Origin: Niveispirillum cyanobacteriorum
Lineage (GTDB): Bacteria > Pseudomonadota > Alphaproteobacteria > Azospirillales > Azospirillaceae
Length of the DNA stretch: 64,000 nucleotides
Direction: 5' to 3'
Assembly (NCBI RefSeq): GCF_002868735.1
Contig: NZ_CP025614.1
Coordinates: 62,001 to 126,000 of the forward strand
A program made the translations under genes and the position numbers. This document shows, piece after piece, positions 22,215-62,247 of the stretch. The notes under the pieces were generated by a model. The model saw only the letters and a program-made list of their open reading frames with translations. It was not told the DNA's origin and made no database searches. Within the stretch, counting starts at the first letter, position 1. Each line of letters opens with the position of its first letter.

Positions 22215-22249
22215 GCGACCACGCGGTCGCGGGCCGGCGGTCGCCGGCC
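22215..22249 (+). other. Two adjacent hairpins between gcdH and the CoA-transferase
   Basis: GCGACC-ACGC-GGTCGC (22215-22230), then GGCCGGC-GGTC-GCCGGCC (22232-22249). There is no T tail, so attenuation or mRNA processing is more likely than full termination. Confidence 0.45.
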
Positions 22250-22275
22250 TGGGTGTCAATTCTGGAGCCTTGATC

Positions 22276-43770: not shown

Positions 43771-43788
43771 GTTGTTTGATCTGTCGTT

Positions 43789-43830
43789 CCCTCACCCTCC
43801 CAAACGCTGGCGCCGATGGGAGGGTGAGGG
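43789..43830 (+). other. Perfect 13-bp inverted repeat between receptor and phytase
   Basis: CCCTCACCCTCCC and GGGAGGGTGAGGG separated by 16 bases; no T tail. Probably an mRNA stability or attenuation hairpin within one transcript. Confidence 0.55.
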
Positions 43831-43856
43831 GGCCCCGCTCCCTTGAAAGGACCCCC

Positions 43857-46404: not shown

Positions 46405-47646
46405 CTAAGCCGCCTGTTCACCGTCAATCACAGCCTTCAACTCCACCGACGGGTCGGCGGCGCGGGCGGCATCGATCAGCTTCCCACCGGTGATCAGGGC
46501 CTTGGCCTGGATGAAGTCGCGGGCATTGTTCAGGCAGTCGATGGCGATCAGCCGCCCGTCGCGCAGATACAGGACGGAGAAGCCGGGGGCGGTGGTATCG
46601 CCGCGTACCAGCACCTGCTCATAATCCATGGCCAGACCCGCGGCCTGCATCTTCACATCATACTGGTCTGACCAGAACCAGGGCAGGGCGGCATAGGGCT
46701 TTTCCAGACCCAGGATCGTATCCGCCGCTACCTTGCCCTGATCAACGGCATTCTGCACCGATTCCAGGCGGATGGCCCGGCCCGCGAAGGCATTGGGATG
46801 CAGGGCGCAATCGCCGATTGCAAGGATGTGCGGGTCCTGCGTCCGGCACAGTGCATCCACCACCACCCCGTTGGGGCAGGGGAGGCCAGCCAGGGCCAGC
46901 GGTTCGACATTGGGGATGATGCCAATGCCGACAATCACGATATCGGCCTGGATCAGGCTGCCATCCGACAGTTCCACACCGTTCACCCGCCCCTCACCGC
47001 GCAAGGCCGACACCTGGGCCGACAGGCGGACATCCACGCCGTGACGGCGATGCAATTCGGCGTAGAAGGCAGAGACAGGCGGGGAGGTGACGCGGGCCAG
47101 CAGCCGTTCCTGGGCCTCCAGTACCGTCACCTCATGCCCCATGGCGCGCAGCACCGCCGCGGTCTCCAGCCCGATGTAGCCGCCGCCCACGATCACCACG
47201 CGCGCACCCGGCACAAGATCGGCCTTCAGCGCGTCGATATCGGCGATGGTGCGGATGGCATGCACGCCGGCCAGACCGGCCCCTGGACAGGACAGACGCC
47301 GGGGCCGCCCGCCCGTGGCCCAGATCAGTTTGCCATATCCGACCCGTGCGCCATCCGTCAGGGTCAGGGTTCGTTCGGCCCTGTCCACCGCCGTCACACG
47401 CCGGCCCGTCAGCAGACTGACCTGTTTTTCTTGCCAATATTCCGGCTTGCGCAGGGCCAGACGTGCCGCGTCGCGCTTGCCGGCCAGATATTCCTTGGAC
47501 AGGGGCGGGCGTTCATAGGGGGCTGCGTCTTCATCCCCGATTATCGCAATGGACCCGGGAAAGCCACCCTGGCGCAGGGATTGCGCGCATTGCGCCGCCG
47601 CCTGTCCCGCCCCGGCAATGACGATATCGTAGTCGGTCTGGCCCAT
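46405..47646 (-). CDS. FAD-dependent ferredoxin reductase of a Rieske oxygenase system
   Basis: 413 residues. N-terminal FAD motif IVIAGAGQAAAQCAQSL, PYERPPLSKEYLAG, WATGGRPR, NAD motif VVIVGGGYIGLETAAVLR, and the FAD-contact AIGDCALHPN. This is the rhodocoxin/putidaredoxin reductase type, which passes electrons from NADH to a ferredoxin serving P450 or Rieske enzymes. Two Rieske oxygenases are encoded 8-13 kb away. No ferredoxin gene is seen in the window. ATG 47646 preferred; AAAGGA upstream. Confidence 0.88.
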   Translation of the reverse strand: MGQTDYDIVIAGAGQAAAQCAQSLRQGGFPGSIAIIGDEDAAPYERPPLSKEYLAGKRDAARLALRKPEYWQEKQVSLLTGRRVTAVDRAERTLTLTDGARVGYGKLIWATGGRPRRLSCPGAGLAGVHAIRTIADIDALKADLVPGARVVIVGGGYIGLETAAVLRAMGHEVTVLEAQERLLARVTSPPVSAFYAELHRRHGVDVRLSAQVSALRGEGRVNGVELSDGSLIQADIVIVGIGIIPNVEPLALAGLPCPNGVVVDALCRTQDPHILAIGDCALHPNAFAGRAIRLESVQNAVDQGKVAADTILGLEKPYAALPWFWSDQYDVKMQAAGLAMDYEQVLVRGDTTAPGFSVLYLRDGRLIAIDCLNNARDFIQAKALITGGKLIDAARAADPSVELKAVIDGEQAA

Positions 47647-47743
47647 GGCAACGGTCCTTTGCAAGAAGACGCACCTGTCCCGTTCCCGACCACGACGGGG
47701 CAGCGGGATCAGGGACCAGTGGCAGGTGGAATGCGCGCGGGCC

Positions 47744-48415
47744 TTATTCCGCCGCGCGCTGCCCAGTCAGGGAGATATATTCGGCGAAGATATCGCCCTG
47801 GATCGTCGTATGCTGACGCAGCCGGCGATAGGCGATTTCAGGGTCGCCCTGCTGCACCGCCTCCATGATGGCGGCATGGTCGCGCAGGTTTTCCTCTGCC
47901 CGGCCCGGATAGTTCAGCTGATAACGGCGATAGGGAACAAGCTGCAGGGCCAGCTTGTCGGTCATTTCCACCAGCACGTCATTATGGCTGCCCCAGACCA
48001 GCAGCTGATGGAACTTGCGGCTGGCCGCGTAATATTCGTCCTGGCGACCGGCATTATAATGGTCTTCGGACTGCTTATGCACCTCGGCCAGCTTGGCCTT
48101 TTCCTCCGGCGACATGCGGCGTGCCGACAGCTTGGCGCACAGGCCCTCCAACTCCGACATGACCTCAAACATATGGATCATGCGGCGGATATCCATGCTG
48201 GCCACGACGGCCCCCTGGCGTGGACGCTTTTCTACCAGCCCGGATTCCACCAATTGCAGCACCGCCTCGCGCACCGGCGTGCGGGAAACGCCGAAGCGGT
48301 TGGCAATCACTTCCTCGTCCAGGCGTGAACCGGGACGCAGGCGGCCCATGAAAATGTCCTGTTCCAGGGACACACGCACATGTTCTGCATGCGTGACGTG
48401 TGTAGGCTTGTTCAT
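47744..48415 (-). CDS. GntR-family (FCD) regulator of the catabolic cluster
   Basis: 223 residues. Winged helix (FMGRLRPGSRLDEEVIANRF, VSRTPVREAVLQLVESGLV, RPRQGAVVA) and helical FCD domain with metal-site residues in SEDHYNAGR, RKFHQLLV, HAAIMEAV. It lies between the ferredoxin reductase gene and a divergent TonB receptor, so it probably controls both. ATG 48415 with GGAGGA upstream. CATAC-containing motifs (see 48576, 57048, 58303) are candidate sites. Confidence 0.82.
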   Translation of the reverse strand: MNKPTHVTHAEHVRVSLEQDIFMGRLRPGSRLDEEVIANRFGVSRTPVREAVLQLVESGLVEKRPRQGAVVASMDIRRMIHMFEVMSELEGLCAKLSARRMSPEEKAKLAEVHKQSEDHYNAGRQDEYYAASRKFHQLLVWGSHNDVLVEMTDKLALQLVPYRRYQLNYPGRAEENLRDHAAIMEAVQQGDPEIAYRRLRQHTTIQGDIFAEYISLTGQRAAE

Positions 48416-48905
48416 CAATCCTCCGCCGCGCGGTACCCGCGCTTGGCCATTTCCGCCTCTCCCGATGCCGCCACCATCGCACCCCGTACAGGACGGCATC
48501 CCTGTCATGTATCGGTCATGGTGGGCCACAAGTCAAGCCGTCGCGGCGTGGATTGAATACGGATAAGGCCGTCTGTGCATACTTTGATGCGGGGCCGCTC
48601 CCCGTAGGCTCAGGCAGGTGAGCTGGTGGGGAGAGATAAGAACGGCGGGATGCCAGGGGAATGGTGGCGGCAGCCGGCGGAACAACGAACTTCCTGCACG
48701 GCCGCACAATTTCTGTCTTCGTATACATTGCGCGCCGTAAAAAAATATTATACAGTCCAAATCGTATCCAGAAAACGCCAACCCCGAACGTGTGTGACGG
48801 GGCCTTGTATCCGGCAATGCCGCCGGAATTCCCAGAATGATCCGCCGTGAATGCGGGTGACAGGAAAAGAGCCGCCGAAGCGCGGCGATCAGGGAGGATA
48901 AGTCG
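48416..48905. other. Divergent control region between GntR and TonB receptor genes
   Basis: 490 bp without a convincing gene. It contains TGCATACT (48576-48583) and GTATACAT (48721-48728), both similar to the CATAC motif in front of the Rieske genes, and an AT-rich stretch around 48737-48753 that could be the receptor promoter. Confidence 0.5.
48576..48583. promoter_or_regulatory. CATAC motif, GntR operator candidate
   Basis: TGCATACT in CTGTGCATACTTTG. Related to the 12-mer sites at 57048 and 58303. Confidence 0.35.
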
Positions 48906-51344
48906 ATGTCACGGAGATACCGTGTGGCAGGGCTGGGCCTGTGCGCCAGCGCGTTCGCCATGCTTGCAACCATGCCCGCCGCCATCGCGCAGCAGGCCCC
49001 CGCCTCCAGCACGGAAGTGGCACAGGCCGCGCCGGCACAGGCCATCGGTCTGGATGAGATCGTGGTGACGGCCAACCGCCGGCAGAGCAATTTGCAGGAA
49101 ACGCCGGTGGCCGTGTCGGCCTTCACGCCCGCCATGTTCGATGCGGCCCCGCCCAAGGATTTAGGTGATATCGCGGCCTACGTGCCCAATTTCTCCGCCG
49201 CGCGCGTCACCGGCTTCAACGCTGCCTCCTTCGCCATGCGCGGCGTCGGGCAGGTGGACATCATCGTCTATTCAGAGGCGCCCGTGGGCGTGATGCTGGA
49301 CGATTTCGTGATGCCCAGCGTGCAGAGCCAGCTTCTGGACACGTTCGACGTGGAGCGGGTGGAAGTACTGCGCGGGCCCCAGGGAACGCTGTTCGGCAAG
49401 AACACGACCGGCGGTGTCGTCACCGTATACACGAAGAAGCCATCCCTGACCGATCAGGCGGGCGAGGTGCAGTTCACTGCCGGCAGTTTCGGCACCCGCG
49501 CGGCCAAGGCATCGGTGAACTTGCCGCTGGTGGAGGACAAGCTGGGCGTGCGTCTGGTCGCCGCCTATAACAAGTCCGACGGCTATTACAAGAACGGTGC
49601 CTGCTATGGCCCGGTTCCCGGCAGCAATGCGCGCGGCTGCGGCGATGGCTCCAAGCTGGGTGGCGAGGATATCTTCAATGGCCGCGCCAAGGTTCTGTGG
49701 AAGCCGGTGGAGAATGTCGAGGCTTTGTTCCAGGTGGAACGCGTGCGCGACAATTCCGACAGCGTGCCCGTCGTCAACACCACGCCGTCCGACAACCGTT
49801 GGGCCTTCTATAATCTGGGCTTCAGCCAGGATGCCGGCGACCCGCTGGACCATGCCGGCATCACCAACCGCGACGACAGCCTGCTGAACATGTCGGATGG
49901 ACATCAGGTCGATGTCGACGGCTATTACAGCACCCTCAACTGGGACGCCGACAAGGTTACGCTGACCTCCGTCACCGGCTGGCGCAAGCAATATTCGCAG
50001 CTGCCCAGCACCTATACGGGTGAGGTCGGCCCCATTTCCCTTTTCGATGCCAACCGCACCGACCTGCGTAAGACCTTCCAGCAGGAATTCCGCATGGCGT
50101 CCAACTGGGACGGACCGGTGCAGATGGTGGCCGGCGGCTTTTATCAGAAGAACGACGTGAATTTCTGCGTGGCGCAGATCCTGGGCTTCCTTGACCTGTT
50201 CGGCGTGACCCTGCCGTTCGGCACCTTCAACAACAACCCGCAGGTCCTGTGCAATCAGGAACGTCAGAAGGCCTATGCCGCCTATGGAGACGTCACCTGG
50301 GAGGTTAATGACAAGCTGACCCTGATCGGTGGTGCCCGCTGGACCAAGGAGAAGAAGGCCTGGGCCGGGCGCAATCAGGTGTTCGTGCAGGCCCTGTCCG
50401 GCACCTTTGATCCGAATTTCACCTGGAATAAGCTGGGTAAGCTTCTGAATGCCGGTGATTTCAACAAGTACCCGACCGGGGTGGTGCGCGACAGCGAAAG
50501 CTGGTCTGAACCAACTTGGCGGGCCAGCGCGTCCTATAAGGTCACCGACGATCTGATGGCCTATGCCACCTATTCGCGGGGCTTCCGGTCCGGTGCCTAT
50601 AATGACCAGACAGGGACCACGGGTGTGGCCATTCCAGCACAGGCCGCCCGGCCCACGAACCCGGAACTGGCTGACAGCTATGAAGCTGGCATCAAGACCG
50701 ACTTCCTTGACAACCGCGCCCGGCTGAACGCGACCGCTTTCTATGTGAACTACAAGGACATGCAGCGCGGTCTGGTCGCCACGCTGACCAACTCCTTCGG
50801 GGAACAGGTGCAGGAAACCCGCTTCTTCAATGCGGGTGAGGCCACCGTGAAAGGGCTGGAGCTGGAAGGCAGCATCCTGCCGACCGACGGCTTGGAAATC
50901 CGCGGCGTTCTGGGCTATCTGGACGCTAAGTATGACCGGTTCGAAGCCGATACGAACTTCGACGGCAAGATCGATATCGACTTCTCCAACCGCCCCCTGA
51001 ACCGCGCCCCCAAATGGCAATGGTCGCTGGACGCCACCTACACGATGGATCTGGCCGACAAGGGCGAGATCCTGTTCAACGGCGCTATCCAGTTTGAGGA
51101 TGAAAACGGCTATGTCTATTCCGATGTCAGCCCGGAGTTCGACAGCAAGCTGGTCAAGAAGACCCTGCTGAACGCCGCCATCACCTGGCACGATGCCGAC
51201 GGCCGCTACACGGTCCAGGCCGTGGGCCGCAACCTGACCGACAAGCGCTACAACACCGCCACCAACGTGGTCGGCTCACTCTGGACCTTCTCCACCTACG
51301 GCCCGCCCCGCTATTACGGCCTGACCGTGGGGGCGAAGTTCTAA
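48906..51344 (+). CDS. TonB-dependent receptor for the catabolic substrate
   Basis: 812 residues. Signal peptide to AIAQQ, plug start IGLDEIVVTANRRQSNLQET, then MRGVGQVDIIVYSEAPVGVM and VERVEVLRGPQGTLFGKNTTGG; barrel ends YYGLTVGAKF. The type is that used by sphingomonads and Caulobacter for hydrophobic organics rather than for siderophores, but substrate is not set by sequence. It is divergent from the GntR regulator and followed by a terminator. ATG with AGGGAGGA upstream. Confidence 0.85.
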   Translation: MSRRYRVAGLGLCASAFAMLATMPAAIAQQAPASSTEVAQAAPAQAIGLDEIVVTANRRQSNLQETPVAVSAFTPAMFDAAPPKDLGDIAAYVPNFSAARVTGFNAASFAMRGVGQVDIIVYSEAPVGVMLDDFVMPSVQSQLLDTFDVERVEVLRGPQGTLFGKNTTGGVVTVYTKKPSLTDQAGEVQFTAGSFGTRAAKASVNLPLVEDKLGVRLVAAYNKSDGYYKNGACYGPVPGSNARGCGDGSKLGGEDIFNGRAKVLWKPVENVEALFQVERVRDNSDSVPVVNTTPSDNRWAFYNLGFSQDAGDPLDHAGITNRDDSLLNMSDGHQVDVDGYYSTLNWDADKVTLTSVTGWRKQYSQLPSTYTGEVGPISLFDANRTDLRKTFQQEFRMASNWDGPVQMVAGGFYQKNDVNFCVAQILGFLDLFGVTLPFGTFNNNPQVLCNQERQKAYAAYGDVTWEVNDKLTLIGGARWTKEKKAWAGRNQVFVQALSGTFDPNFTWNKLGKLLNAGDFNKYPTGVVRDSESWSEPTWRASASYKVTDDLMAYATYSRGFRSGAYNDQTGTTGVAIPAQAARPTNPELADSYEAGIKTDFLDNRARLNATAFYVNYKDMQRGLVATLTNSFGEQVQETRFFNAGEATVKGLELEGSILPTDGLEIRGVLGYLDAKYDRFEADTNFDGKIDIDFSNRPLNRAPKWQWSLDATYTMDLADKGEILFNGAIQFEDENGYVYSDVSPEFDSKLVKKTLLNAAITWHDADGRYTVQAVGRNLTDKRYNTATNVVGSLWTFSTYGPPRYYGLTVGAKF

Positions 51345-51384
51345 GGGGCCCCCCTGAAGCGTGAACTCCCGAGAGGCGACCTTT

Positions 51385-51420
51385 GGGGGGCTGGTGCGGA
51401 CCGGTCCCCCCTTTTCTTTT
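51385..51420 (+). terminator. Rho-independent terminator after the TonB receptor
   Basis: GGGGGG (51385-51390) pairs with CCCCCC (51406-51411), followed by TTTTCTTTT. Confidence 0.7.
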
Positions 51421-51425
51421 GGGTG

Positions 51426-51692
51426 TCAAGAGCCGTAAAGCTGACTGTGCGTACCCACTCGAATAAACATCACGGTGACATAGCCCCCGGTCTCGATGAA
51501 CACGAGGCGCAGGTCAAAACCCGCGCTGATGGATCGATGTCCCGCAAGCGCGCCTTTCAGGGGATGATTATACAGTTCCGGAGCATGGGGATTGTCGCAG
51601 AAGGCCTTGATCGCCTTCTCCACCGCCGTCTGCTGATTTGGCTGCAACAGGTCAAGCTGTTTGATGAATTTCCGGTGGAAGCGGATTTCCAT
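51426..51692 (-). CDS. RelE/YafQ-family toxin
   Basis: 88 residues: MEIRFHRKFIKQLDLLQPNQ, LKGALAGHRSISAGFDLRLVFIE, typical RelE fold mRNase on the ribosome. Start ATG 51692; a GTG at 51698 overlapping the antitoxin stop as GTGA is an alternative. Confidence 0.82.
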   Translation of the reverse strand: MEIRFHRKFIKQLDLLQPNQQTAVEKAIKAFCDNPHAPELYNHPLKGALAGHRSISAGFDLRLVFIETGGYVTVMFIRVGTHSQLYGS

Positions 51693-51694
51693 GC

Positions 51695-51970
51695 TCACCC
51701 GCCGGTGCCGCTCCGCTGGTGTCGCAGATAGGCGATGGCGGCATCCGCGTCCTGGAAGCCGGGGGAAAGGTTCTCGCCCAGCTGCGCTTCTGCACTGGCC
51801 GCCAGGATTTCCTGCTCTTCCGCCGGCGTGAAGCCGTTCTCTGTCAGGACTTCCTCAACATGCACGCGCACCAGCGCGTCCGGCGAGATGCCGGGCCGCA
51901 GCTTCGCCGGAACATCCCGGGCGCGGTAGATACCCGCCGGAAGGGTTGGCTTTGTAGGGGCGAAACGCAT
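51695..51970 (-). CDS. Antitoxin partner of the RelE-like toxin
   Basis: 91 residues: MRFAPTKPTLPAGIYRARD, C-terminal acidic helix. Gene order antitoxin-toxin is typical. No recognisable DNA-binding fold by eye, so the call rests on the neighbour and size. Confidence 0.7.
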   Translation of the reverse strand: MRFAPTKPTLPAGIYRARDVPAKLRPGISPDALVRVHVEEVLTENGFTPAEEQEILAASAEAQLGENLSPGFQDADAAIAYLRHQRSGTGG

Positions 51971-52047
51971 GGCTTCAGGTCCAGAGGCACAATGACGATC
52001 AATAGTCGGACATTGCCGCCGCCCTGTCAAACCCGCCAGCTGGTGCC

Positions 52048-52908
52048 TCACACCACATTGAAATGCTCCGGCACGCCGCCGGGCCAGACGGTGCCCCACA
52101 TCTGCATGCCGCCATCGATGGTCAGCATTTCACCGGTGATGAACTTGCCCGACGGGGCGACCAGATAGATCACACCCTCGGCCACGTCCCAGGCATTGCC
52201 CATGCGGCGCATCGGGTTGGTATCGGCAAAGCGCGCGGTGGCCTCTGGCGGATAGACGTTGAAACCTTCTGTCGCCACCGTGCCGGGCGCCACGCAGTTC
52301 ACGCGGATATTCAGCGGCGCCCATTCGGTGGCCACCGTCTTGGACAGATAGATCACGCCGGCCCGCGCCGCACAGGTATGGGCCGCCTGGGGCATGCCGC
52401 GTTCGACATAGGCCACGATATTGACGATGGACCCCGCCTCGCCCCTGTCGCGCCAGCGCTTGGCGGCGGCCTGCATCATGTGCCAGGTGCCGTTCAGGTT
52501 GGTGTCGATGACGGCGTTCCAGCCCTTCTTGGAAAAGTCGATGGCCGCCTGCGGGAACTGCCCGCCGCCATTATTCACTACATGGTCGATGCGCCCGAAT
52601 TCCGCGATGGTGCGGTCCATCAGCGCGTCCACCTGATCGGGGTCGCGGATGGTCATGGGCATGATGGCGATGTCGCGGCCCAGCAGGCGGCGGATGCCGT
52701 CCCGCGTCTCGGCCAGCTTTTCCTCCCGTCGGCCACAGATCATCACCTTGGCACCCAGCCGCGTGAACAGATAGGCCATGGCCTTGCCCATGCCGCTGCC
52801 CCCACCCGACAGCACCACTACCTGATCCTGCAGCAGGTCCGGGCGATAGACGGTGGGCAGGCTGGCCAGCTCTTCCTCGCTGAAGCCCCATTGTCTGGTT
52901 TCGGTCAT
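52048..52908 (-). CDS. SDR oxidoreductase, dienoyl-CoA-reductase-like, without the Tyr-Lys motif
   Basis: 286 residues. Cofactor loop VVLSGGGSGMGKAMAYLF, NNGGGQFPQ, and C-terminal TIDGGMQMWG. The usual YxxxK is replaced: MPQAAHTCAARAGVIYLSK has Thr/Cys and Arg where Tyr and Lys are normally found, as in peroxisomal 2,4-dienoyl-CoA reductases. It lies three bases after the thiolase gene on the same strand. It probably acts on a CoA thioester in the cluster, as a reductase. Confidence 0.82.
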   Translation of the reverse strand: MTETRQWGFSEEELASLPTVYRPDLLQDQVVVLSGGGSGMGKAMAYLFTRLGAKVMICGRREEKLAETRDGIRRLLGRDIAIMPMTIRDPDQVDALMDRTIAEFGRIDHVVNNGGGQFPQAAIDFSKKGWNAVIDTNLNGTWHMMQAAAKRWRDRGEAGSIVNIVAYVERGMPQAAHTCAARAGVIYLSKTVATEWAPLNIRVNCVAPGTVATEGFNVYPPEATARFADTNPMRRMGNAWDVAEGVIYLVAPSGKFITGEMLTIDGGMQMWGTVWPGGVPEHFNVV

Positions 52909-52911
52909 GGT

Positions 52912-54114
52912 TCAGTCCCCCAGCCGCCCGATGATGGCGACCGATGTGATGTTGCGGTTGGGCAGGCCGCCCAGATTGTGGGTCAGGCCGAAACGCGGGT
53001 CCGGCAATTGCCGTTCGCCCGCGCGGCCCTGAAGCTGCAAATAAATCTCATAGACCATGCGCAGGCCCGTGGCCCCGATGGGGTGGCCGAAACATTTCAG
53101 ACCGCCGTCGATCTGGCAGGGGATTTTGCCGTCGCGGTCGAAGAACCCGTCCATCACGTCGCGTACGGCCCCACCCTCCGGCGACAGGCGCAGATCCTCC
53201 ATCACCACCAGTTCGGTGACGGAGAAACAATCATGCACCTCGATCAGCGACAGTTCGGCGCGCGGGTCCCTGATCCCCGCCTCCTCATAGGCGCGCTTGG
53301 CCGCGATGCGGGTGGTCAGGGTATAGGAACCGTCCCAGGAGCCATGCGCCAGCTCTACCCCGTTGCTGGGGGCCAGCTGCAGCGCCTTCACCGTCACCGG
53401 ATTATGCTTGCCCAGGGACCGGGCAATCTCCGGCGTGGTGACGATGGCGCAGGCCGCCCCGTCCGACACGCCGGCGCAATCGAACAGGCCCAGCGGATAG
53501 GCCACCATGCGCGCATCCAGCACCTGTTGCTCGGTGATCGGATTGCGCAGATGCGCCTTGGGGTTCAAGGCACCATTGGCATGGCTTTTTACCGAGATAT
53601 GGGCCATGGCGCGTTTAAGATCGGCCATGTCCGTCCGCGTGCGCGCGGCATAGGCGGCCCCCAACTGCGCAAAGCCGCCGGGTGCCGTATTCTGCGGCAG
53701 CCAGAGATCCTCAAATGTACCCTTGGTCCGTTCCGGCAGGCCGCCGAAGCCGGTATCTTTCAGCTTTTCCACGCCCATGGCGATGGCGATGTCGCACGCC
53801 CCAGCCGCGACCGCATAGACAGCCCCGCGCAGCGCCTCTGTCCCCGTGGCGCACAAATTCTCCACCCGCGTGACGGGGATGTTGGGTAGGCGCAGCGCCA
53901 TGGACAAGGGCAGGGCCGATTTCCCCACGCTCTGTTCGTCAAAGAACACACCCATCCAGCCCGCCTGGATGTCGGATTTCTGGATGCCGGCATCGTGCAA
54001 GCATTCCTGAAACGCCTCCAGCATCAGATCGTCAGGCCCGGCATCCCAGCGTTCGCCAAACCGCGAACAGCCCATGCCGATGATCGCCACCTTGTCGCGG
54101 ATACCCTTGGCCAT
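52912..54114 (-). CDS. Thiolase (SCP-x/lipid-transfer type)
   Basis: 400 residues. Nucleophile Cys 88 in VENLCATGTEA; other catalytic parts are LIEVHDCFSVTEL and GGLKCFGHPIGATG. This branch acts with small DUF35 proteins to cleave C-C bonds from CoA esters (retro-Claisen or aldol type), as in steroid side-chain loss (Ltp2/ChsH2) and in benzylsuccinyl-CoA thiolase. Start ATG 54114; only one base separates it from the stop of the upstream KAS/DUF35 gene. Length is normal. Confidence 0.86.
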   Translation of the reverse strand: MAKGIRDKVAIIGMGCSRFGERWDAGPDDLMLEAFQECLHDAGIQKSDIQAGWMGVFFDEQSVGKSALPLSMALRLPNIPVTRVENLCATGTEALRGAVYAVAAGACDIAIAMGVEKLKDTGFGGLPERTKGTFEDLWLPQNTAPGGFAQLGAAYAARTRTDMADLKRAMAHISVKSHANGALNPKAHLRNPITEQQVLDARMVAYPLGLFDCAGVSDGAACAIVTTPEIARSLGKHNPVTVKALQLAPSNGVELAHGSWDGSYTLTTRIAAKRAYEEAGIRDPRAELSLIEVHDCFSVTELVVMEDLRLSPEGGAVRDVMDGFFDRDGKIPCQIDGGLKCFGHPIGATGLRMVYEIYLQLQGRAGERQLPDPRFGLTHNLGGLPNRNITSVAIIGRLGD

Positions 54115-54115
54115 T

Positions 54116-55567: not shown

Positions 55568-55599
55568 GGGGTAGGACCTTTCGGAAAACGCCTGATCTT

Positions 55600-55720
55600 C
55601 GTCATCCCGGCGAAAGCCGGGACCCAGGGGCCACAAGATCAAACGTCGATGCTGCTGCGGTGGAACTGTGGAAAGTTTGGGCGCTTGTGATCCTGGGTCC
55701 CGGCTTTCGCCGGGATGACG
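55600..55720. repeat. REP/MITE-like element, copy 2
   Basis: 121 bp with the same inverted ends as 12200-12319 (GTCATCCCGGCGAAAGCCGG at left; reverse complement ending at 55720), different middle. It lies between the KAS/DUF35 gene and the Rieske gene inside one apparent operon. Confidence 0.78.
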
Positions 55721-55733
55721 TATGTGGGTGGCT

Positions 55734-56954
55734 TCACGCCGCCTGTGCCGCCTCAATAAACTTCGCCAGCACCTGCGCTACCCGCAGATGCTCCGGCACC
55801 GCGTCGCCGATGCGTCGGTCCAGTTCTTCGTGCCAGTGGTAAATCCGGCGCTCCTGATAATTCAGGGAAATGCCTGTGAAGCCACCGCTTTCCACCGATT
55901 TCTGGATGCTGTCGGCGAACTGCGTATCCTCTTCCAGGATACGGTCGAAGTTTGAAATGCGGGTTTCCCAGATTTCGGGACGCGGCCCGTCGCCCCAGTC
56001 GGGGGAGAACCAGCAGACCTCAATATACATACGCCTGATATCGATGGGCCAGAACACGATGAAGGGCATGCCCGTCGGGGCCGGCGGCACCACGATGTTG
56101 GGATAGACATTGATCGAGACATTGGCCGTGCGCGGGATTTCACCCACGGTCGGAATGTCGGGCAACCCCTTGGTGCCTGGGTCCTGCCAGCCGGGCCGGC
56201 GGTTGGGCGTGACCATGCGGGAATGGCCGTTAGGCCACAGCGTCATGAACGACCCGCGATGGTCCAGGAACCGGTCCACCGTATTCTGGTGGATGGATTT
56301 CAGGTGATAGACCTCCAGGAACGCATCCAGCAGGACCTTCACATTGCATTCCACCACCACCCCATGCCGGTCGGCCAGACGCAGGTTCTGCGGCTGGAAT
56401 TCCGACAGGTCGGGCACGACGGGGGCCAGATACTCCATCAGCGGCCCGGCATTCTTATCCATATTGATGAAATGCCAGTTGCCGAAATTCTCGCACCGCA
56501 CCTCGATCAGCGATTTGCATTTCAGGTCCAGCCCGACAAAGTCGCGCTTATCGCGCAGATTGATCAGGTCGCCCTTCAGGTTATAGGTCCAGCCATGATA
56601 GCCGCAGACCATGCCACGGCCCTTGCCCTTTTCCTCTGTCACCACGGGCGCGCCGCGATGGCGGCAGGTATTGTAGAAACAGCGGATCTTGTTGTCGTCG
56701 CCGCGCACGAAGAACAGCGGATCGCCCAGCCGGTCCCATTTCAGGTATGACCCGATCTCCGGCACCTCATCGGCATGGATCGCATAGACCCAGGTGCGCC
56801 GCCACAGGGCCTGACGCTCCAGCTCATAGAATTCCGGGTCGACATAGCGACCGGCGGGGATTTCCGGCAGTTCCGGGAAATCATCCGGCGGGCCCACACG
56901 CGTGGACTCATACTGCATGCCGGCCTTGATGCGGTCGATCTCCAGGGCCTCCAT
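55734..56954 (-). CDS. Rieske non-heme iron oxygenase, alpha subunit (1)
   Basis: 406 residues. Rieske centre CRHRG (Cys 97, His 99) and CGYHGW (Cys 117, His 120); mononuclear iron site DAFLEVYHLKSIH (Asp 210, His 217, His 222). Aromatic ring-hydroxylating type without a visible beta subunit gene. ATG 56954 with AAGGA upstream. CATAC motifs lie 75-105 bp before it. Substrate unknown. Confidence 0.88.
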   Translation of the reverse strand: MEALEIDRIKAGMQYESTRVGPPDDFPELPEIPAGRYVDPEFYELERQALWRRTWVYAIHADEVPEIGSYLKWDRLGDPLFFVRGDDNKIRCFYNTCRHRGAPVVTEEKGKGRGMVCGYHGWTYNLKGDLINLRDKRDFVGLDLKCKSLIEVRCENFGNWHFINMDKNAGPLMEYLAPVVPDLSEFQPQNLRLADRHGVVVECNVKVLLDAFLEVYHLKSIHQNTVDRFLDHRGSFMTLWPNGHSRMVTPNRRPGWQDPGTKGLPDIPTVGEIPRTANVSINVYPNIVVPPAPTGMPFIVFWPIDIRRMYIEVCWFSPDWGDGPRPEIWETRISNFDRILEEDTQFADSIQKSVESGGFTGISLNYQERRIYHWHEELDRRIGDAVPEHLRVAQVLAKFIEAAQAA

Positions 56955-57029
56955 GGTCCTTCCCTTTCCTTCTCTGTCTTCGCCCATCCTCCGCCATGGA
57001 GATGACGGAATAAGCGGGCGCGCATTTTC

Positions 57030-57060
57030 CGCATACATAGCAGATCACTCTGCATACAGA
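57030..57060. promoter_or_regulatory. CATAC motif cluster upstream of Rieske gene 1
   Basis: CGCATACATA (57030-57039) and CTCTGCATACAG (57048-57059). The latter 12-mer recurs exactly at 58303-58314 before the CoA-transferase. Candidate GntR sites. Confidence 0.5.
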
Positions 57061-57080
57061 AAGCACGTATTTTGTGTACG

Positions 57081-58265
57081 TCAAACGATCCTGGCCGAAC
57101 GCAGCGCCGAAATGGCGGCGGCGTCATAGCCCAGTTCGGTCAGGATCGCGTCGGTATGTTCGCCCACCGTGGGCGGGCGTGAGCGAATACTGGCGGGTGT
57201 GGCGGACAGGGTAACGGGTGGGCCAGCGACCGGGGCAGGGCGCGGCAGGCCCGGATAATCCACATCCTGCAACAGGCCCATGGCCTGGACCTGTGGATGG
57301 TCCAAAACCTGCTGCGGTGACAGGACAGGCCCGCCCGGAATGCCGGCCGCCGCCAGCGCCTCCACCGTTTGATCCGTGGTTCGCCTGGCGCACCAATCGG
57401 CCATCCGGGCGCAGAGAATTTCATTATTGTCGCCGCGTGCCTGATCGCTGGCAAAGCGGGGATCGGACTTCCAGCCGGGTTCCCCCACCATGTCGCACCA
57501 GCGCGCGAACAGCCCATCGCCCACCGTGTGGATCAATACATGGCCGTCGGTGGTGGCGAACACGTCCGACGGGGCCGATGTCTGCACCCGGTTGCCGGTA
57601 CCGACCCGGTTGATGCCTGTCACCGCCTGTTCCACCAGAAAGGCATTGAACAGGGTGACGCCGGTTGACAGCAGGCTGGCCTGCACCGACTGCCCCCGCC
57701 CCGTGGCGCGCTTCTCCATCAGGGCCGCCATGGCGCCCAAGGCCGCGAACATGCCGGTGCCGAAGTCTACATAGGGTGCCCCGGCCTTCATCGGCTGTTC
57801 CGGGGTGCCGGAGAAATACATGGAACCCGACATGGCCTGTCCCACCCCGTCAAACCCGCCGCGCGCGGCCCAGGGACCCGCGGCACCGAAGCTGGAGATC
57901 AGGACGGGGATGATGTCGGGCTTGATGGCGCGCAAACTGTCTTCATCCAGCCCCATGGCGGCAAGGGCAGGCGGCGGCAGGTTGGCGACGACGACATCCG
58001 CCGTTTCCACCAGACGGCGCACCACCTCACACCCCTCTGGCTTGGTCGGGTTCAGGGTCAGCGAGCGCTTATTGACGCCCATCTGCAGCCATCCCGCGCC
58101 TTCTCCGCTTTCGGTCACGGGCGTGATGAACCGGTCCTCACCCCCGCCCAGCCGCTCGATGCGGATCACATCGGCCCCGAAATAGCCCAGCAGGGTTGCG
58201 CAGTAGGGGCCGGCGACATAACGCCCGAAATCCAGCACCCGCACGCCGTTCAGCACCTGTGACAC
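57081..58265 (-). CDS. Class III CoA-transferase (CaiB/BaiF)
   Basis: 394 residues. GVRVLDFGRYVAGPYCATLL, GADVIRIERLGGGEDRF, LVISSFGAAGPWAARGGFD-like, and PYVDFGTGMFAALG are family III marks. It moves CoA between acids and would activate or recycle a carboxylic intermediate of the cluster. GTG 58265 with GGAGGA upstream; a 20-codon in-frame extension is not needed. It lies upstream of Rieske 1 on the same strand (126 bp). Confidence 0.84.
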   Translation of the reverse strand: MSQVLNGVRVLDFGRYVAGPYCATLLGYFGADVIRIERLGGGEDRFITPVTESGEGAGWLQMGVNKRSLTLNPTKPEGCEVVRRLVETADVVVANLPPPALAAMGLDEDSLRAIKPDIIPVLISSFGAAGPWAARGGFDGVGQAMSGSMYFSGTPEQPMKAGAPYVDFGTGMFAALGAMAALMEKRATGRGQSVQASLLSTGVTLFNAFLVEQAVTGINRVGTGNRVQTSAPSDVFATTDGHVLIHTVGDGLFARWCDMVGEPGWKSDPRFASDQARGDNNEILCARMADWCARRTTDQTVEALAAAGIPGGPVLSPQQVLDHPQVQAMGLLQDVDYPGLPRPAPVAGPPVTLSATPASIRSRPPTVGEHTDAILTELGYDAAAISALRSARIV

Positions 58266-58302
58266 GTCCCATCCTCCCCCGCCGGGCTTTCCCGGCCTGT
58301 TG

Positions 58303-58314
58303 CTCTGCATACAG
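58303..58314. promoter_or_regulatory. CATAC 12-mer upstream of the CoA-transferase
   Basis: CTCTGCATACAG, identical to 57048-57059; 38 bp from the CoA-transferase start. Candidate operator. Confidence 0.5.
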
Positions 58315-58440
58315 GATATAGCCATTTCAGATAAATCGGCAAGCGCGCATAAAGTTAGGTTTTCTGCGGCTCATAGGCGCAAATGCATCGTATCGTATGC
58401 TGCGTCGCAGCAAAAATCGGCAGTTTCGACTTTTTAATTT

Positions 58441-58464
58441 TACACACAAATGGCATTGTGTGTA
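58441..58464. promoter_or_regulatory. 24-bp dyad upstream of Rieske 2
   Basis: TACACACAA, six bases, TTGTGTGTA: perfect nine-base arms. It is followed by TATTTTT, so it could also fold as a weak terminator-like hairpin. Candidate operator of the plus-strand operon. Confidence 0.5.
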
Positions 58465-58584
58465 TATTTTTCGAAACCAAACGGGATCGGTATGGGCCGC
58501 ATCCTTTTGCATGGCTCGTCGCAATCTGCGCGCCCACCACCCGACAAGAAGTTCCAGGGAACCCGCGATCTGGGAGGATCATCC

Positions 58585-59982
58585 ATGGACGGGATCAGTT
58601 CGTCTTTCGACTATCGCAAGGGCTGGTCGATCAATCCGGCGGCCAAGCCGGGCGATATCGACGCCAAGGCCCCCTTCATCGACAATGGCACCGAGAAATT
58701 CGACCCCGCCCAATATTACGACAAAGGCTGGATGGCGCAGGAATGGGAGAAGCTGTGGACCAAGGTCTGGCTGATTGCCTGCCCGTCCAGCGACGTGCGC
58801 GAGGAAGGGGACTTTGCGACCTTTGAGATCGGTAACGAGAATATCGTTGTCGTCCGGGGCGATGATGGACAGGTCCGCGCCTTCTATAATGTCTGTCCGC
58901 ACCGGGGTAACCGGCTGGTGCATACAGCACTGGGCAGCCTGGCGAACGGCTTTGCCTGTTCCTTCCATAGCTGGAAATTCAACCTGGATGGCAGCCTGAA
59001 ATCCATCACCGACCGGGAAACCTTCCGTCCCGAAGTGGTGTGCCATAATCCAGGCATGAGTGCGGTTCGGTGCGAGGAACTGGCGGGTCTGGTCTTCATC
59101 TCCATGAACCCGGACGCGCCCGACCTGCGCGGCTGGCTGGGTCCGGTGGCGGACCATCTGGAAAGCTACCAGATCGACAAGATGCATGTGGTCCGGCAGG
59201 TGCGCAGCGAATGGGCCGCCAACTGGAAGATCGGGGTCGATGCCTTTTACGAGGTCTATCACCTGCATGCGGTCCATCCGGAAACCCAGGGCGTGATGGA
59301 GGATTATTTCGTCCAGTACGACCTGTTCCCCAATGGCATGAGCCGGATGTGCATCCCCTTCTACCGGCCCAGCCCGCGCGTGCCCGACCAGTTGGGCGTG
59401 AATGAAGGGCTGAAAATGATGATGCCCGACGCGGCCCTGGACCCGACCGGTTTCACCGGCACGGCACAGGAGGTGCGCGCGGCGGCCCAGAAGGCCAAGC
59501 GTGAACGCGCCGAACGGCTGGGCCTGGGGTACGAGAAGCTGACCGATGCGCAGCTGACCGACAGTTTCGCCTATGGCCTGTTCCCGAATGTGCAGATCGG
59601 CTGCCATCCGGAGGGCGTGTTCCTGATGCGCTTCATCCCGCATCCGGAAGACCCCGAACGTTTCTTCTACGACATCACCATCCTGTTCCGGCCTGTCGGT
59701 GCGGTGGCAGAGGCGGCGGGCAATTATGATGTGCCGGCCTGGATGGGCCTGCCGGAAGGTACCGACATTTCCGGTCGGGTGCGCCCCGATTGCGTGCACG
59801 TGCCGCTGGGCGAACCGGCCAATCTGGGTCTGGTGCTGGATCAGGACAGTGAGCTGTTGCCTGTGGTCCAGAAAGGTCTGCGCTCACGCGGGTTCAACGG
59901 CATGCTGTTCGGCGAGCAGGAACAGCGCCTGCGCCATTTCCATGTCGAGCTGAACCGCTACATGGCGGGGGAGCCGCGATGA
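58585..59982 (+). CDS. Rieske non-heme iron oxygenase, alpha subunit (2)
   Basis: 465 residues. Rieske centre CPHRG (Cys 104, His 106) and CSFHSW (Cys 125, His 128); mononuclear site VDAFYEVYHLHAVH (Asp 219, His 226, His 231). Related to but clearly different from the Rieske protein on the other strand; it has about 60 extra residues near the middle (VRAAAQKAKRERAERLG). ATG 58585 follows GGGAGG. It overlaps the ABM gene as ATGA, so the product may be used at once with the partner protein. Confidence 0.88.
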   Translation: MDGISSSFDYRKGWSINPAAKPGDIDAKAPFIDNGTEKFDPAQYYDKGWMAQEWEKLWTKVWLIACPSSDVREEGDFATFEIGNENIVVVRGDDGQVRAFYNVCPHRGNRLVHTALGSLANGFACSFHSWKFNLDGSLKSITDRETFRPEVVCHNPGMSAVRCEELAGLVFISMNPDAPDLRGWLGPVADHLESYQIDKMHVVRQVRSEWAANWKIGVDAFYEVYHLHAVHPETQGVMEDYFVQYDLFPNGMSRMCIPFYRPSPRVPDQLGVNEGLKMMMPDAALDPTGFTGTAQEVRAAAQKAKRERAERLGLGYEKLTDAQLTDSFAYGLFPNVQIGCHPEGVFLMRFIPHPEDPERFFYDITILFRPVGAVAEAAGNYDVPAWMGLPEGTDISGRVRPDCVHVPLGEPANLGLVLDQDSELLPVVQKGLRSRGFNGMLFGEQEQRLRHFHVELNRYMAGEPR

Positions 59983-60293
59983 TCTTTTTCATCAGCCGCT
60001 TTACCGTGAAGCCGGAATGCGAGGCGGAGTTCATTCGCCTCGCCACCGCCCTGACGGAGAAGGTCCGCGCGCATGAGCCAAAGACCCTCTATTACGCCTT
60101 TTACCGAGCCGATGATGGCCCCGGCCGCTTCGTGGTGGTGGAAAGTTTCCCGGATGAGGCGGCGGAACATGAACACCAATCCACGCCCTGGTTCACGGAG
60201 ATTGTGCCGCAGATGATCCCGTGTTTCGACGGGCCCTATGTGCGGGAATATTTCCATCCGCTGACCGCCTCCGTGAAAGGGTTGACGGCATGA
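59979..60293 (+). CDS. Antibiotic-biosynthesis-monooxygenase-fold protein (1)
   Basis: 104 residues of the small dimeric alpha+beta ABM fold: ISRFTVKPECEAEFIRLA, YYAFYRADDGPGRFVVVESF, STPWFTEIVPQMIPCFDGP. It resembles its paralogue at 61957. Function may be cofactor-free oxygenation or isomerisation of a ring product of the Rieske enzyme. Overlaps Rieske 2 and the ligase gene by four bases on each side. Confidence 0.82.
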   Translation: MIFFISRFTVKPECEAEFIRLATALTEKVRAHEPKTLYYAFYRADDGPGRFVVVESFPDEAAEHEHQSTPWFTEIVPQMIPCFDGPYVREYFHPLTASVKGLTA

Positions 60294-61942
60294 GCAAGGC
60301 CGACCAGTTCATCCATGCCACCACGCTTGGCGACCTGCTTTTGTCGGCGGCCCATTCCTGGCCCGACACGGACGCGCTGATCTTTCCCGATGAAAGCCTG
60401 ACCTATCGCGATCTGGCCGCCCGCGCCATGCGCCATGCCAAGGGGCTGATGGCGATGGGGGTGAAGCCGGGCGACCATGTCGGTGTGCTGCTGCCATCTT
60501 GTATCGAGTTCGTCGATATCCTGTTCGGCGTGGCCCTGGCCGGCGGTGTGACGGTGCCGATCAATGCCCGCTATCGCGCGCATGAACTGGCCTATGTCAC
60601 CGACAATGCCGATCTGGTCACCATCATCACCACCGAACAGGTGGCTGATCAGCTGAATTTTGTGGATCGCCTGTGTGAGGGGCTGGAGGGTCTGGCAGAG
60701 CAGACAGACCCGATGGATCTGCGCTTGAAGGGCTGCCCGCGTCTGCGCTCCATCATCCTGCTGGGCGATGGCGGACGACCCTTCGCCGTCACGGCGGAAA
60801 GGTTCGATGCCCTGGCCGAAACCGTCACGGATGAAGCCGTGCATGAACGCCGTGCCTTTGCGCGGGTCCGCGCCCCCGGCATCATCCTGTACACATCCGG
60901 CACCACGTCGAACCCCAAGGGCTGTCTGATCAGCCATGAGGCGATTGTCCGCACCTCCCAGGCGCTGGCAGAGCGGTATGAACTGACCGACCGCGACCGG
61001 TTCTGGTCGCCGCTGCCTTTGTTCCATATCGCGGCCATCCTGCCGCTGGTCGCCATCTATGCCAAGGGCGGCACCTATCTGTCGATGCAGCATTTTGATG
61101 CCGGCGTGGCGTTGAAAATGCTGGAAACGCACAAGGTGACGGCGACATACCCCTGCTTTGCCCCCATCATGGTGGATTTGATCCACCATCCGGATTTCGC
61201 CAAGACCGACCTGTCCTCCATGCGCCTGATGAACTCATCGCTCGCGGTACAGACGGGTGCGATGAAGGAGATGCTGGCCAAGGCCATGCCCAACTGCATC
61301 CAGGTCGGCACCTATGGCCTGTCGGAGGCGGCGGGAACCGTCTGCACCAGCAGCCTTTCCGACAGTTACGAGGTGCGGACCACACGGTTGGGCCGGCCTT
61401 TGCCCGGGATTGAGGTGAAGATCGTCGATGCCTTTGGCAACCCGCTGCCAGCGGGGGAGAAGGGCGAAATCCTGGTGCGCAGCCCCGGCCTTCTGGACGG
61501 TTATTACAAGGACCCGGTGAAAACCGCAGAGGCGCTGCGGGGCGGCTGGCTGCATACGGGTGATGTCGGGTCGCTGGATGCCGACGGCAACATCATGTTC
61601 CATGGCCGTACCAAGGACATGCTGAAGGTCGGCGGGGAGAATGTCGCGGCGGCTGAGATCGAGGCCTATATCGGCACCCACCCGGCGGTGAAGATGTGCC
61701 AGGTGGTGGGCGCACCCGATCCGCGTCTGGTGGAGGTGCCCGCCGCCTTCATCGAACTGCATCCCGGCACGTCACTGACCGCGCAGGAAGTGTTGGATTA
61801 CTGCCGGGGCAAGATCTCCAGCTTCAAGGTGCCGCGCCATGTGCGGTTCGTGACGCAATGGCCCATGTCCACCAGCAAGATCCAGAAATACAAGCTGCGT
61901 CAGCAGCTTGAAGCGGAACTGGCGGCTGGTGCCGCCGCCTGA
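60290..61942 (+). CDS. Acyl-CoA synthetase (AMP-forming)
   Basis: 550 residues. AMP-binding P-loop ILYTSGTTSNPKGC, acid-binding region TYGLSEAAGT, core LHTGDVGSLDADGNIMFHGR with KVGGENVAAAEIE hinge, and C-terminal Lys in TSKIQKYKLRQQ. It activates a carboxylic acid as CoA thioester, probably the first committed step of the cluster. Overlaps ABM 1 by ATGA. The specific acid is unknown. Confidence 0.9.
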   Translation: MSKADQFIHATTLGDLLLSAAHSWPDTDALIFPDESLTYRDLAARAMRHAKGLMAMGVKPGDHVGVLLPSCIEFVDILFGVALAGGVTVPINARYRAHELAYVTDNADLVTIITTEQVADQLNFVDRLCEGLEGLAEQTDPMDLRLKGCPRLRSIILLGDGGRPFAVTAERFDALAETVTDEAVHERRAFARVRAPGIILYTSGTTSNPKGCLISHEAIVRTSQALAERYELTDRDRFWSPLPLFHIAAILPLVAIYAKGGTYLSMQHFDAGVALKMLETHKVTATYPCFAPIMVDLIHHPDFAKTDLSSMRLMNSSLAVQTGAMKEMLAKAMPNCIQVGTYGLSEAAGTVCTSSLSDSYEVRTTRLGRPLPGIEVKIVDAFGNPLPAGEKGEILVRSPGLLDGYYKDPVKTAEALRGGWLHTGDVGSLDADGNIMFHGRTKDMLKVGGENVAAAEIEAYIGTHPAVKMCQVVGAPDPRLVEVPAAFIELHPGTSLTAQEVLDYCRGKISSFKVPRHVRFVTQWPMSTSKIQKYKLRQQLEAELAAGAAA

Positions 61943-61956
61943 CGGGAGTTTGGTTC

Positions 61957-62247
61957 ATGTACACCATCGTCGCCAAGCTGTTCGTGAAGCCGGAAAGGGA
62001 GGCGGAATTCGTCGCCGCCATGACGGCCTTGACCGATAGGGTCCTGGCCCATCAGCCGGATGTCAGCGTCTATCTGTTCAAGAAAATCCGTGGCCGCGAC
62101 CATGCCTACGCCGCCATCGAACAGCACCCGTCGCAGGATTATTTCCGTGACGTCCACTGCACCACGCCCTGGTTCCAGGAGCTGGTGCCCGTCGTGATGC
62201 CCTGCCTTGCGGAACCGATGGTGCTGGAGGAGTATGACGACCTGTGA
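61957..62247 (+). CDS. Antibiotic-biosynthesis-monooxygenase-fold protein (2)
   Basis: 96 residues, paralogous to ABM 1: VAKLFVKPEREAEFVAAMTA, YLFKKIRGRDHAYAAIEQHP, TTPWFQELVPVVMPCLAEP. Shared core TPWFxExVP. Follows the ligase by 14 bp with GGGAG upstream. Last gene of the plus-strand operon; a 7-bp hairpin follows. Confidence 0.82.
   Translation: MYTIVAKLFVKPEREAEFVAAMTALTDRVLAHQPDVSVYLFKKIRGRDHAYAAIEQHPSQDYFRDVHCTTPWFQELVPVVMPCLAEPMVLEEYDDL

Follow-up and report, generated by a model that had tools for sequence, protein, structure and literature searches.

A two-block, horizontally dispersed gene cluster for putative CoA-linked oxygenative catabolism in Niveispirillum cyanobacteriorum

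The ipf pathway of Rhizorhabdus wittichii MPO218 combines a ligase with an alpha-beta Rieske oxygenase. According to the available part of its description, propionyl-CoA is released in this pathway by the ipfDE-encoded thiolase (PMC9195938), while the edc genes of Novosphingobium tardaugens are reported, again in the text available, to include a thiolase and an 'HMG-CoA synthase' with no assigned step (PMC7793797). Catalytically incomplete subunits of this fold are known from PhlACB, where PhlA carries Gly115 at the position of the ketoacyl synthase (KAS) Cys in the portion of the structural account available. Among Rieske enzymes, CntA has a bridging Glu (PMC7948474, in part), and some group V members, as far as the accessible text goes, place a Cys pair beside the iron (CntA Cys206/Cys209; PMC10952381). 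Paralogue expansions of Rieske ring-hydroxylating dioxygenases (RHD), CaiB transferases, and short-chain dehydrogenases/reductases (SDRs) in SAR202 bacteria have been proposed to act on recalcitrant organic matter, the Rieske expansion being discussed for aromatics and the CaiB and SDR expansions for alicyclic compounds in the available sections of PMC6946804 and PMC5395668. Here we describe a cluster with elements of each of these systems at positions 46405 to 62247 (block A) of a 64,000-nucleotide stretch of Niveispirillum cyanobacteriorum (the window; G000:C4:62001-126000, where C4 is a 237-kb contig in a 6.05-Mb genome of five contigs).

We put at roughly two in three the probability that the interval forms one block (A) of a CoA-linked, oxygenative catabolic pathway that is horizontally dispersed and split in two, its other part being supplied by a second block (block B) on the same contig. 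The reading is carried by the gene families, their catalytic motifs, a linkage conserved between distant bacteria, and the co-occurrence of block A with a third Rieske gene. The preliminary description, made from the letters of the window, had proposed a catabolic cluster that depends on CoA, has Rieske oxygenases lacking a beta subunit, and uses a thiolase-type unit for C-C cleavage, and families and motifs agree with it. The cluster is real, and we read the interval as one half of a larger pathway, with a third Rieske alpha and the ferredoxins elsewhere on the contig. The conserved two-block system is likewise real, and we take it to be a form of CoA-linked oxygenative catabolism.

Blocks A and B and their recurrence

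The twelve genes first named all lie within 46405-62247 with intact frames and the families originally given (Pfam, NCBIfam), and a YafQ/ParE-type toxin open reading frame (ORF) with its possible antitoxin (51426-52099) had been omitted. The frames held, whereas several starts had been placed too far upstream. From the sequence and comparison with Niveispirillum lacus, the probable starts are 58585 for Rieske 2, 60290 for the ligase, and GTG 58265 for the CoA-transferase; that of the KAS-DUF35 gene is probably GTG 55567, downstream of a repetitive extragenic palindromic (REP) element. The features of block A, and two of block B (coordinates of locus L025), are as follows.

46405..47664, minus strand: NAD(P)H:ferredoxin reductase, FAD (Pfam Pyr_redox_2 and Reductase_C)
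47744..48529, minus strand: GntR/FCD transcriptional regulator (Pfam)
48906..51344, plus strand: TonB-dependent receptor (Pfam)
51426..52099, minus strand: toxin-antitoxin-like ORF pair, with a YafQ/ParE-type toxin at 51426-51698 (Pfam) and an upstream ORF without family
52048..52908, minus strand: SDR dehydrogenase (Pfam), last gene of the CaiB-Rieske 1-KAS-DUF35-thiolase-SDR run
52912..54114, minus strand: SCP2-type thiolase (NCBIfam PRK06157, motifs, alignments)
54116..55567, minus strand: KASIII/HMG-CoA-synthase-like domain fused to DUF35 (ChsH2 Zn ribbon and OB)
55734..57038, probable start near 56954, minus strand: Rieske oxygenase alpha 1 (Pfam; bridging Glu, DAFLEVYHLKSIH)
57081..58325, probable GTG start 58265, minus strand: family-III (CaiB/BaiF) CoA-transferase (Pfam)
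58585..59982, plus strand: Rieske oxygenase alpha 2 (Pfam; bridging Glu, DAFYEVYHLHAVH)
59979..60293, plus strand: ABM-domain protein 1 (ABM1), 104 aa (Pfam)
60290..61942, plus strand: acyl-CoA ligase, AMP-binding (Pfam)
61957..62247, plus strand: ABM-domain protein 2 (ABM2; Pfam 22.5 bits, cut-off 23.1)
L025:4839-5150, minus strand: Rieske ferredoxin (block B)
about L025:5164-6330, minus strand: acyl-CoA dehydrogenase (block B)

The CaiB-type CoA-transferase, Rieske 1, KAS-DUF35, thiolase, and SDR genes run head to tail on the minus strand, with Rieske 2, ABM1, the ligase, and ABM2 on the plus strand. Most curated NCBIfam equivalogs score far under their cut-offs (ligase, best 382.8 against 832; CoA-transferase, 238 against 750), so that the families are clear and the functions are not.

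Block B lies at about C4:159,697-170,494, 35 kb from block A, and encodes Rieske alpha 3, thiamine pyrophosphate-dependent E1alpha, E1beta, a lipoyl E2, SDRs, MaoC, ThuA, a VOC protein (Glyoxalase_4), and a Fer2 ferredoxin in addition to the two features above. The absence of a ferredoxin remarked on in the preliminary description is thus true of the interval but not of the contig, where block B holds both a Fer2 and a Rieske ferredoxin. The accompanying statement that no Rieske beta subunit is present holds for the interval, and none was found among the ORFs and family matches of blocks A and B, the genome as a whole not having been searched for one. Genes for IS66, IS3-like, IS4/5, and Tn3 transposases lie between the blocks, within the 20 kb following block A (locus L024, C4:127,000-141,000), and may explain the split in this genome. 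In N. lacus, the Rieske 3-E1-E2 part adjoins block A with a single PQQ-domain gene intervening (the locus as read ended before the remainder of block B), and in genomes G069 and G070 a single contig carries both block A and Rieske 3 at a distance of 5-6 kb; in G070 this is contig C5, where some 5 kb separate Rieske 3 from the ligase.

Sister loci at 90-94% identity are labelled Niveispirillum, N. lacus, and, in one case, Azospirillum sp. A KAS-DUF35 of the window type (at least 90%) occurs in 6 of 11 genomes of the genus, the ligase is found in the same six, and Rieske 3 is present in five of these and in none of the other five genomes. Full nesting of five in six among eleven has a chance of 6/462, or ∼0.013, by a hand estimate that ignores relatedness. 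One sister genome has a second KAS-DUF35/thiolase pair, 47% identical (G073:C65:25253, locus L014), with no Rieske cluster within the 20 kb read.

Beyond the genus, the best 80 loci of an alignment search with KAS-DUF35 were retained. The thiolase (at least 50% identity) accompanies 75 of these 80, Rieske 1 (at least 45%) 15, and the CoA-transferase (at least 50%) 15, with Rieske 1 and KAS-DUF35 sharing a locus of at most 21.5 kb in all 15 cases of Rieske 1 linkage. Three of these 15 come from the genus (L026, L028, and L027, the last titled Azospirillum; a fourth, L029, is cut by a contig end), and the other 12 compare with about 0.02 expected by chance (a rough hand estimate). Relatives of Rieske 2, at 51-59%, are found in 9 of the 80 loci, N. 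lacus aside. Most of the core also occurs, with identities of about 45-78%, in remotely related Alpha- and Gammaproteobacteria. Full, near-full, or contig-cut clusters are present in metagenome-assembled genomes (MAGs) of Gammaproteobacteria (L036, L037, L039, L040, L077, L091, L092, and L105), and partial ones in alphaproteobacterial MAGs. Larger versions reside on plasmids of Terrarubrum, Paracoccus, Sphingobium RAC03, Croceicoccus, and Novosphingobium; in four plasmid versions a stand-alone OB protein and another thiolase replace the KAS-DUF35/thiolase pair. Gene order varies between relatives and presence is patchy. The N. resinovorum locus contributed motifs only.

In a KAS-DUF35 tree of 90 rows, all 17 Rieske 1-linked rows fall within one set of 27 (SH-like approximate likelihood-ratio test, SH-aLRT, 95), the remainder of which comprises seven partial clusters and three others. 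Linkage to Rieske 1 requires four label changes on this tree, compared with a mean of 15.8 for shuffled labels, and none of 500 shuffles was as low. As the method was quick, the branches long (L119 especially), and near-copies remained among the rows, no deep order is claimed.

Nine loci (L036, L037, L039, L040, L062, L077, L091, L092, and L105) have one to three glutathione S-transferase (GST)-like genes and an acyl-CoA dehydrogenase in the cluster, and one GST-like gene of the related clusters was confirmed by Pfam. Orthologue groups across 21 gene sets were built by a community method, and GST-like genes occur in nine of these sets, counts from which are not frequencies because the sets were chosen for holding cluster genes. 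The 14 GST_C matches of the window's genome are all on contigs C1-C3. A GST-dependent route as in isoprene degradation was set aside, no such gene having been seen in blocks A and B.

Catalytic motifs and accessory features

Rieske alphas 1, 2, and 3 all carry a bridging Glu rather than Asp. This residue is found in 18 of 18 rows of the Rieske 1 family, within DAFLEVYHLKSIH-type motifs, and in 23 of 24 Rieske 2/3 rows, the remaining one (L039 Rieske 2) being cut by a contig end. Counting near-copies, the fetched loci together contain 85 distinct Rieske alpha ORFs, of which 74 have Glu, four have Asp, and seven do not match the pattern; among the Asp type are L001, from the window's own genome, and the alpha of L122, which has a beta partner. 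CntA is the best Protein Data Bank (PDB) match of Rieske 1 and 2 (phmmer), aligned chiefly over the N-terminal half, and the motif DAFxE places Phe at the position of CntA Tyr203, thereby keeping an aromatic residue. The Cys-X-X-Cys pair near the iron is absent by alignment and motifs, Val/Leu taking its place in Rieske 1 and 2, and scores against the GbcA equivalog (117.5 and 123.3 bits for Rieske 1 and 2, and 134.1 for a further Rieske) are well below the cut-off of 670. A bridging Glu alone does not define group V.

Rieske 1, which marks the conserved cluster, is rare, being found in 15 of 385 sampled alphaproteobacterial genomes (E≤1e-100, its own and one sister genome included) and in 2 of 398 genomes of a phylum sample (E≤1e-80, its own included). 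Three relatives contain one in-frame stop (G212:C1:2316318, G074:C513:2285, and G786:C3:43290), which may reflect a decayed gene or an assembly error. Genome G512 (3.9 Mb) has 41 Ring_hydroxyl_A matches, three of them Rieske 1 relatives at E≤1e-100. The density of Rieske oxygenases is very high in G520, G630, and G786, three genomes of 1.3-1.4 Mb with 14 to 20 such matches each (17, 20, and 14), one gene per genome being counted twice; loci from two of these genomes have 34-37% G+C. The Rieske 1 relatives of G520 and G786 lie beside SDR, MaoC, and E1 genes, and the G630 contig ends after SDR and MaoC.

The thiolase retains the motifs ENLCATG, VHDCF, and GHPIGATG, with the catalytic Cys and His kept, and passes NCBIfam PRK06157 with 663.6 bits (cut-off 403). 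It aligns to 6ESQ_A and to BbsB 7PXP_C, both of which score above PhlC. In the wider survey, three simple regular expressions were applied to 95 thiolase rows, 13 of which did not match one of them. Judged by its motifs, the SCP2-type thiolase is likely to be the active C-C bond cleaving subunit. Its neighbor combines PF12172 and PF01796 in one chain with the KAS domain, with a match to 6ESQ_E at E 1e-5, and fold-search matches agree with an HMG-CoA synthase (HMGCS)/KAS fold, the DUF35 part being scarcely covered by that search. The KAS catalytic Cys is absent from all 90 KAS-DUF35 rows; at its column the window protein has Leu, the full tally being Gln in 61, Leu in 22, Arg in six, and Met in one. 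From its sequence features, we assign KAS-DUF35 as a PhlA/HMG-CoA-synthase-type scaffold, equivalent to PhlA plus PhlB, without the catalytic Cys. The two proteins had been called a retro-Claisen pair, a term that suits the thiolase, with its motifs intact, but not a partner that lacks the KAS Cys. An active ketosynthase was rejected for the KAS domain on account of the missing Cys, as was an Ltp2/Sal-type retro-aldolase for the thiolase, which has VHDCF rather than YDHF/YDCY and keeps CxTG. Side-chain removal by the thiolase unit is possible, and ring opening is as compatible with it.

The reductase, whose best NCBIfam score is AndAa (372 bits, below the cut-off of 650), has relatives in the Terrarubrum and Variovorax loci and presumably supplies electrons to the Rieske oxygenases. 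The GntR/FCD protein, probably a local regulator, groups with regulators from the Paracoccus pTAV3 and Terrarubrum clusters, and the TonB receptor, probably for substrate uptake, has relatives at 41-48% identity in gammaproteobacterial and other clusters. Relatives of the SDR at 58-71% occur in ten loci outside the genus, and many clusters have the CoA-transferase near Rieske 1. The stop of ABM1 and the start of the ligase overlap. ABM1 (AlphaFold2 mean pLDDT 92.4) has 4HL9 and LsrG 2GFF as top Foldseek matches, generic ABM/LsrG hits that indicate no reaction, and ABM2, slightly under the Pfam cut-off, still aligns to ABM1 relatives. The toxin-antitoxin pair was found by blastn at 87% in L023/L029, which are one and the same contig and make up two of the five sister loci compared, and not in L015, L017, or L028; it is probably an unrelated passenger.

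A REP-type palindromic element occurs at window 55598-55720 and at L025:8693-8815, in the Rieske 1/KAS-DUF35 gap of block A and the Rieske 3/E1alpha gap of block B, respectively. The genome contains 43 exact copies of its 21-base core, frequently two per element. The CaiB/Rieske 2 and MaoC/ferredoxin intergenic regions have the 12-mer TGCATACAGGAT in common, which we treat as a lead because about 0.6 such 12-mers would be expected in the regions compared (hand estimate). An inverted repeat, ACACACAA...TTGTGTGT, lies upstream of Rieske 2 and has one mismatch in L015. Elsewhere in the window, an acyl-CoA dehydrogenase gene is followed by a second family-III CoA-transferase gene (20876-23478), a pair that we take to resemble the glutaryl-CoA route, and an STN-domain TonB receptor gene is followed by one for a phytase-domain protein (41242-45185).

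Proposed pathway and rival explanations

The following route, with its reactions, their order, and its substrate class (a carboxylated alicyclic/terpenoid-like or aryl-alkyl acid), is predicted from the gene families. The TonB receptor would import a carboxylated ring compound, which the acyl-CoA ligase would convert to its CoA thioester. Driven by the FAD reductase together with the ferredoxins of block B, the three alpha-only, bridging-Glu Rieske oxygenases would then hydroxylate it, and the SDRs, with the acyl-CoA dehydrogenase and MaoC hydratase of block B, could take the hydroxyls to a beta-keto (or 1,3-diketo) acyl-CoA. Thiolytic cleavage of the C-C bond would fall to the thiolase, with the inactive KAS-DUF35 scaffold holding it in the manner of PhlACB and the archaeal thiolase/HMGCS complex; the family-III transferase may shuttle CoA among the product acids, and the E1/E2 complex may convert a 2-oxoacid or acyloin fragment to acyl-CoA. 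The Paracoccus and Terrarubrum versions include FAD_binding_2 dehydrogenases near ketosteroid and 4-oxocyclohexanecarboxylate dehydrogenases (KstD/ChcC-type), at scores below curated cut-offs, and we therefore lean toward an alicyclic ring substrate. A bolder form of the proposal, in which the bridging-Glu enzymes are monooxygenases of CoA thioesters of carboxyl-rich alicyclic (terpenoid- or hopanoid-derived) molecules and the pseudo-KAS-scaffolded thiolase opens the ring, is speculative and, in our estimate, doubtful. If it were true, the machinery that has been proposed for recalcitrant dissolved organic matter might here exist in a compact and partly culturable form.

Several observations weigh against a single two-block pathway. 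KAS-DUF35 without Rieske 1 predominates in the best 80 loci, and the other Azospirillaceae copies (at most 51% identity) lie outside such clusters in the loci seen. Conversely, the Rieske 1 loci of Terrarubrum, Paracoccus, RAC03, and Croceicoccus are without KAS-DUF35, and 16 loci at Rieske 1 or its paralogues have KAS-DUF35 in four and E1 genes in three. E1/E2 genes are present in 7 of the 21 compared sets, with ThuA, VOC, ABM, and GST genes variable, and the CoA-transferase family, found in 49 of 385 genomes, is not cluster-specific. G074, a MAG of 540 contigs, has block A, and Rieske 3 was not found in it. The genes of the set need not all act on one molecule.

In line with the preliminary view that this is not a recognised pathway, no matching cluster description was found in the full-text literature available (subscription journals are mostly not covered), and no paper there brings together at least four of ThuA, Rieske, MaoC, CoA transferase, ABM, and E1 component. 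No high identity to a characterised cluster emerged either, the nearest relative of characterised context, in a comparison that did not extend to a general database of characterised proteins, being an edc-like pair at 34.5%/42%. This adjacent KAS-DUF35 (34.5%, full length) and thiolase (42%) lie in a region of Novosphingobium ES2-1 plasmid p3 that we classify as edc-like from the genes it carries (P450, BphC-like VOC, large ferredoxin oxidoreductase, and Ltp-like and OB proteins). Edc-like steroid ring degradation, with E1/E2 substituting for EdcC and the thiolase/KAS-DUF35 pair at work once the ring has been opened, draws on the SDR, acyl-CoA dehydrogenases, VOC, and 2-oxoacid oxidoreductase that accompany the ES2-1 pair, on the N. 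tardaugens genes described in the available text of PMC7793797, and on the KstD-type dehydrogenases of two relatives. We nevertheless consider it quite improbable, as the ES2-1 pair is a distant subfamily whose branch (L119) is by far the longest, such pairs occur in many contexts, as the thiolase count shows, and no P450, EdcB-, or EdcC-like family appeared among the scanned block A and B proteins, a scan that was not genome-wide.

An ipf-like aromatic acid pathway, in which the Rieske enzyme dioxygenates an aryl-alkanoyl-CoA and a thiolase/OB unit removes the side chain to give a catechol cleaved elsewhere, shares its gene logic with the cluster, since ipf likewise has a ligase and a Rieske oxygenase. 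The release of propionyl-CoA by the ipfDE thiolase (PMC9195938, as far as available) and the stand-alone OB protein and thiolase of related clusters also speak for it. This pathway appears unlikely to us all the same, given that the oxygenases here are of the bridging-Glu, alpha-only kind, that no ring-cleavage dioxygenase was recognised (the block B VOC protein matches Glyoxalase_4), and that the acyl-CoA dehydrogenase, MaoC, and E1/E2 hint at reactions on an alicyclic ring or a chain. Moreover, the ipf oxygenase is an alpha-beta enzyme, and no beta was seen in blocks A and B. That unrelated catabolic genes accumulated on a mobile replicon would fit the transposase genes past block A, the variable order, and the patchy presence, but becomes very improbable in view of the same tightly spaced core in distant classes and the co-occurrence of block A and Rieske 3 across the genus. 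The least probable explanation makes the Rieske enzymes N-demethylating quaternary-ammonium oxygenases (group V, CntA/GbcA-like), with the CoA genes serving the betaine carbon skeleton. The CntA match, the common bridging Glu, and the Phe at the Tyr203 position accord with this, and CaiB-type transferases and ligases are known from carnitine metabolism; TonB uptake, the thiolase complex, and KstD-type partners, however, would misfit a small betaine, and the identity as group V betaine oxygenases was set aside on the low GbcA scores and the replacement of the Cys pair by Val/Leu.

Comparison with known systems

The two-block reading bears on families (Rieske alpha paralogues, CaiB transferases, and SDRs) that are expanded in mostly uncultured bacteria for which a role in processing stable ring compounds has been proposed. 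In the present case these families are brought together in a compact, conserved cluster that is also carried by strains and plasmids of genera in culture, namely N. lacus, Paracoccus, Sphingobium, Croceicoccus, and Terrarubrum, and the cultured hosts and two-block gene inventory therefore open the substrate question to knockout testing. The cluster points to a Rieske subclass in which a bridging Glu occurs away from any obvious quaternary-amine context, and to a scaffold that fuses KAS with DUF35 and lacks the KAS Cys, a relative of the edc 'HMG-CoA synthase' that was left without a role.

The thiolase unit resembles PhlACB, the Pseudomonas protegens enzyme for 2,4-diacetylphloroglucinol C-acylation (5M3K, relative 9SKH), in combining an HMGCS/KAS-fold subunit without the Cys, a DUF35 partner, and a thiolase subunit holding the active Cys and His. 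It differs in that KAS and DUF35 are fused and the operon is a catabolic one with Rieske oxygenases and CoA genes. The HMGCS of 6ESQ keeps its active Cys by alignment (Cys114, in the available description), in contrast to none of the 90 KAS-DUF35 rows. CntA is likewise an alpha-only Rieske enzyme with a bridging Glu, but its Cys206/Cys209 pair is missing from the cluster Rieskes, the context of which is not that of a quaternary amine. The edc-like region of ES2-1 has an adjacent KAS-DUF35/thiolase pair with an SDR and acyl-CoA dehydrogenases, whereas edc relies on a P450 and an extradiol dioxygenase, with no Rieske role; identities reach only 34.5%/42%, and N. tardaugens was compared by description. 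The ipf system of R. wittichii MPO218, compared from the available description rather than by sequence, has a ligase, a Rieske oxygenase, and the ipfDE thiolase, but its oxygenase is alpha-beta and no CaiB/KAS-DUF35/ABM set is described. Finally, SAR202 is alike by family only, with RHD alphas exceeding betas, CaiB transferases, and SDRs in the accounts available. There, these are paralogue families of Chloroflexota, whereas the present genes are gathered in one compact, conserved cluster of Proteobacteria, cultured strains among them.

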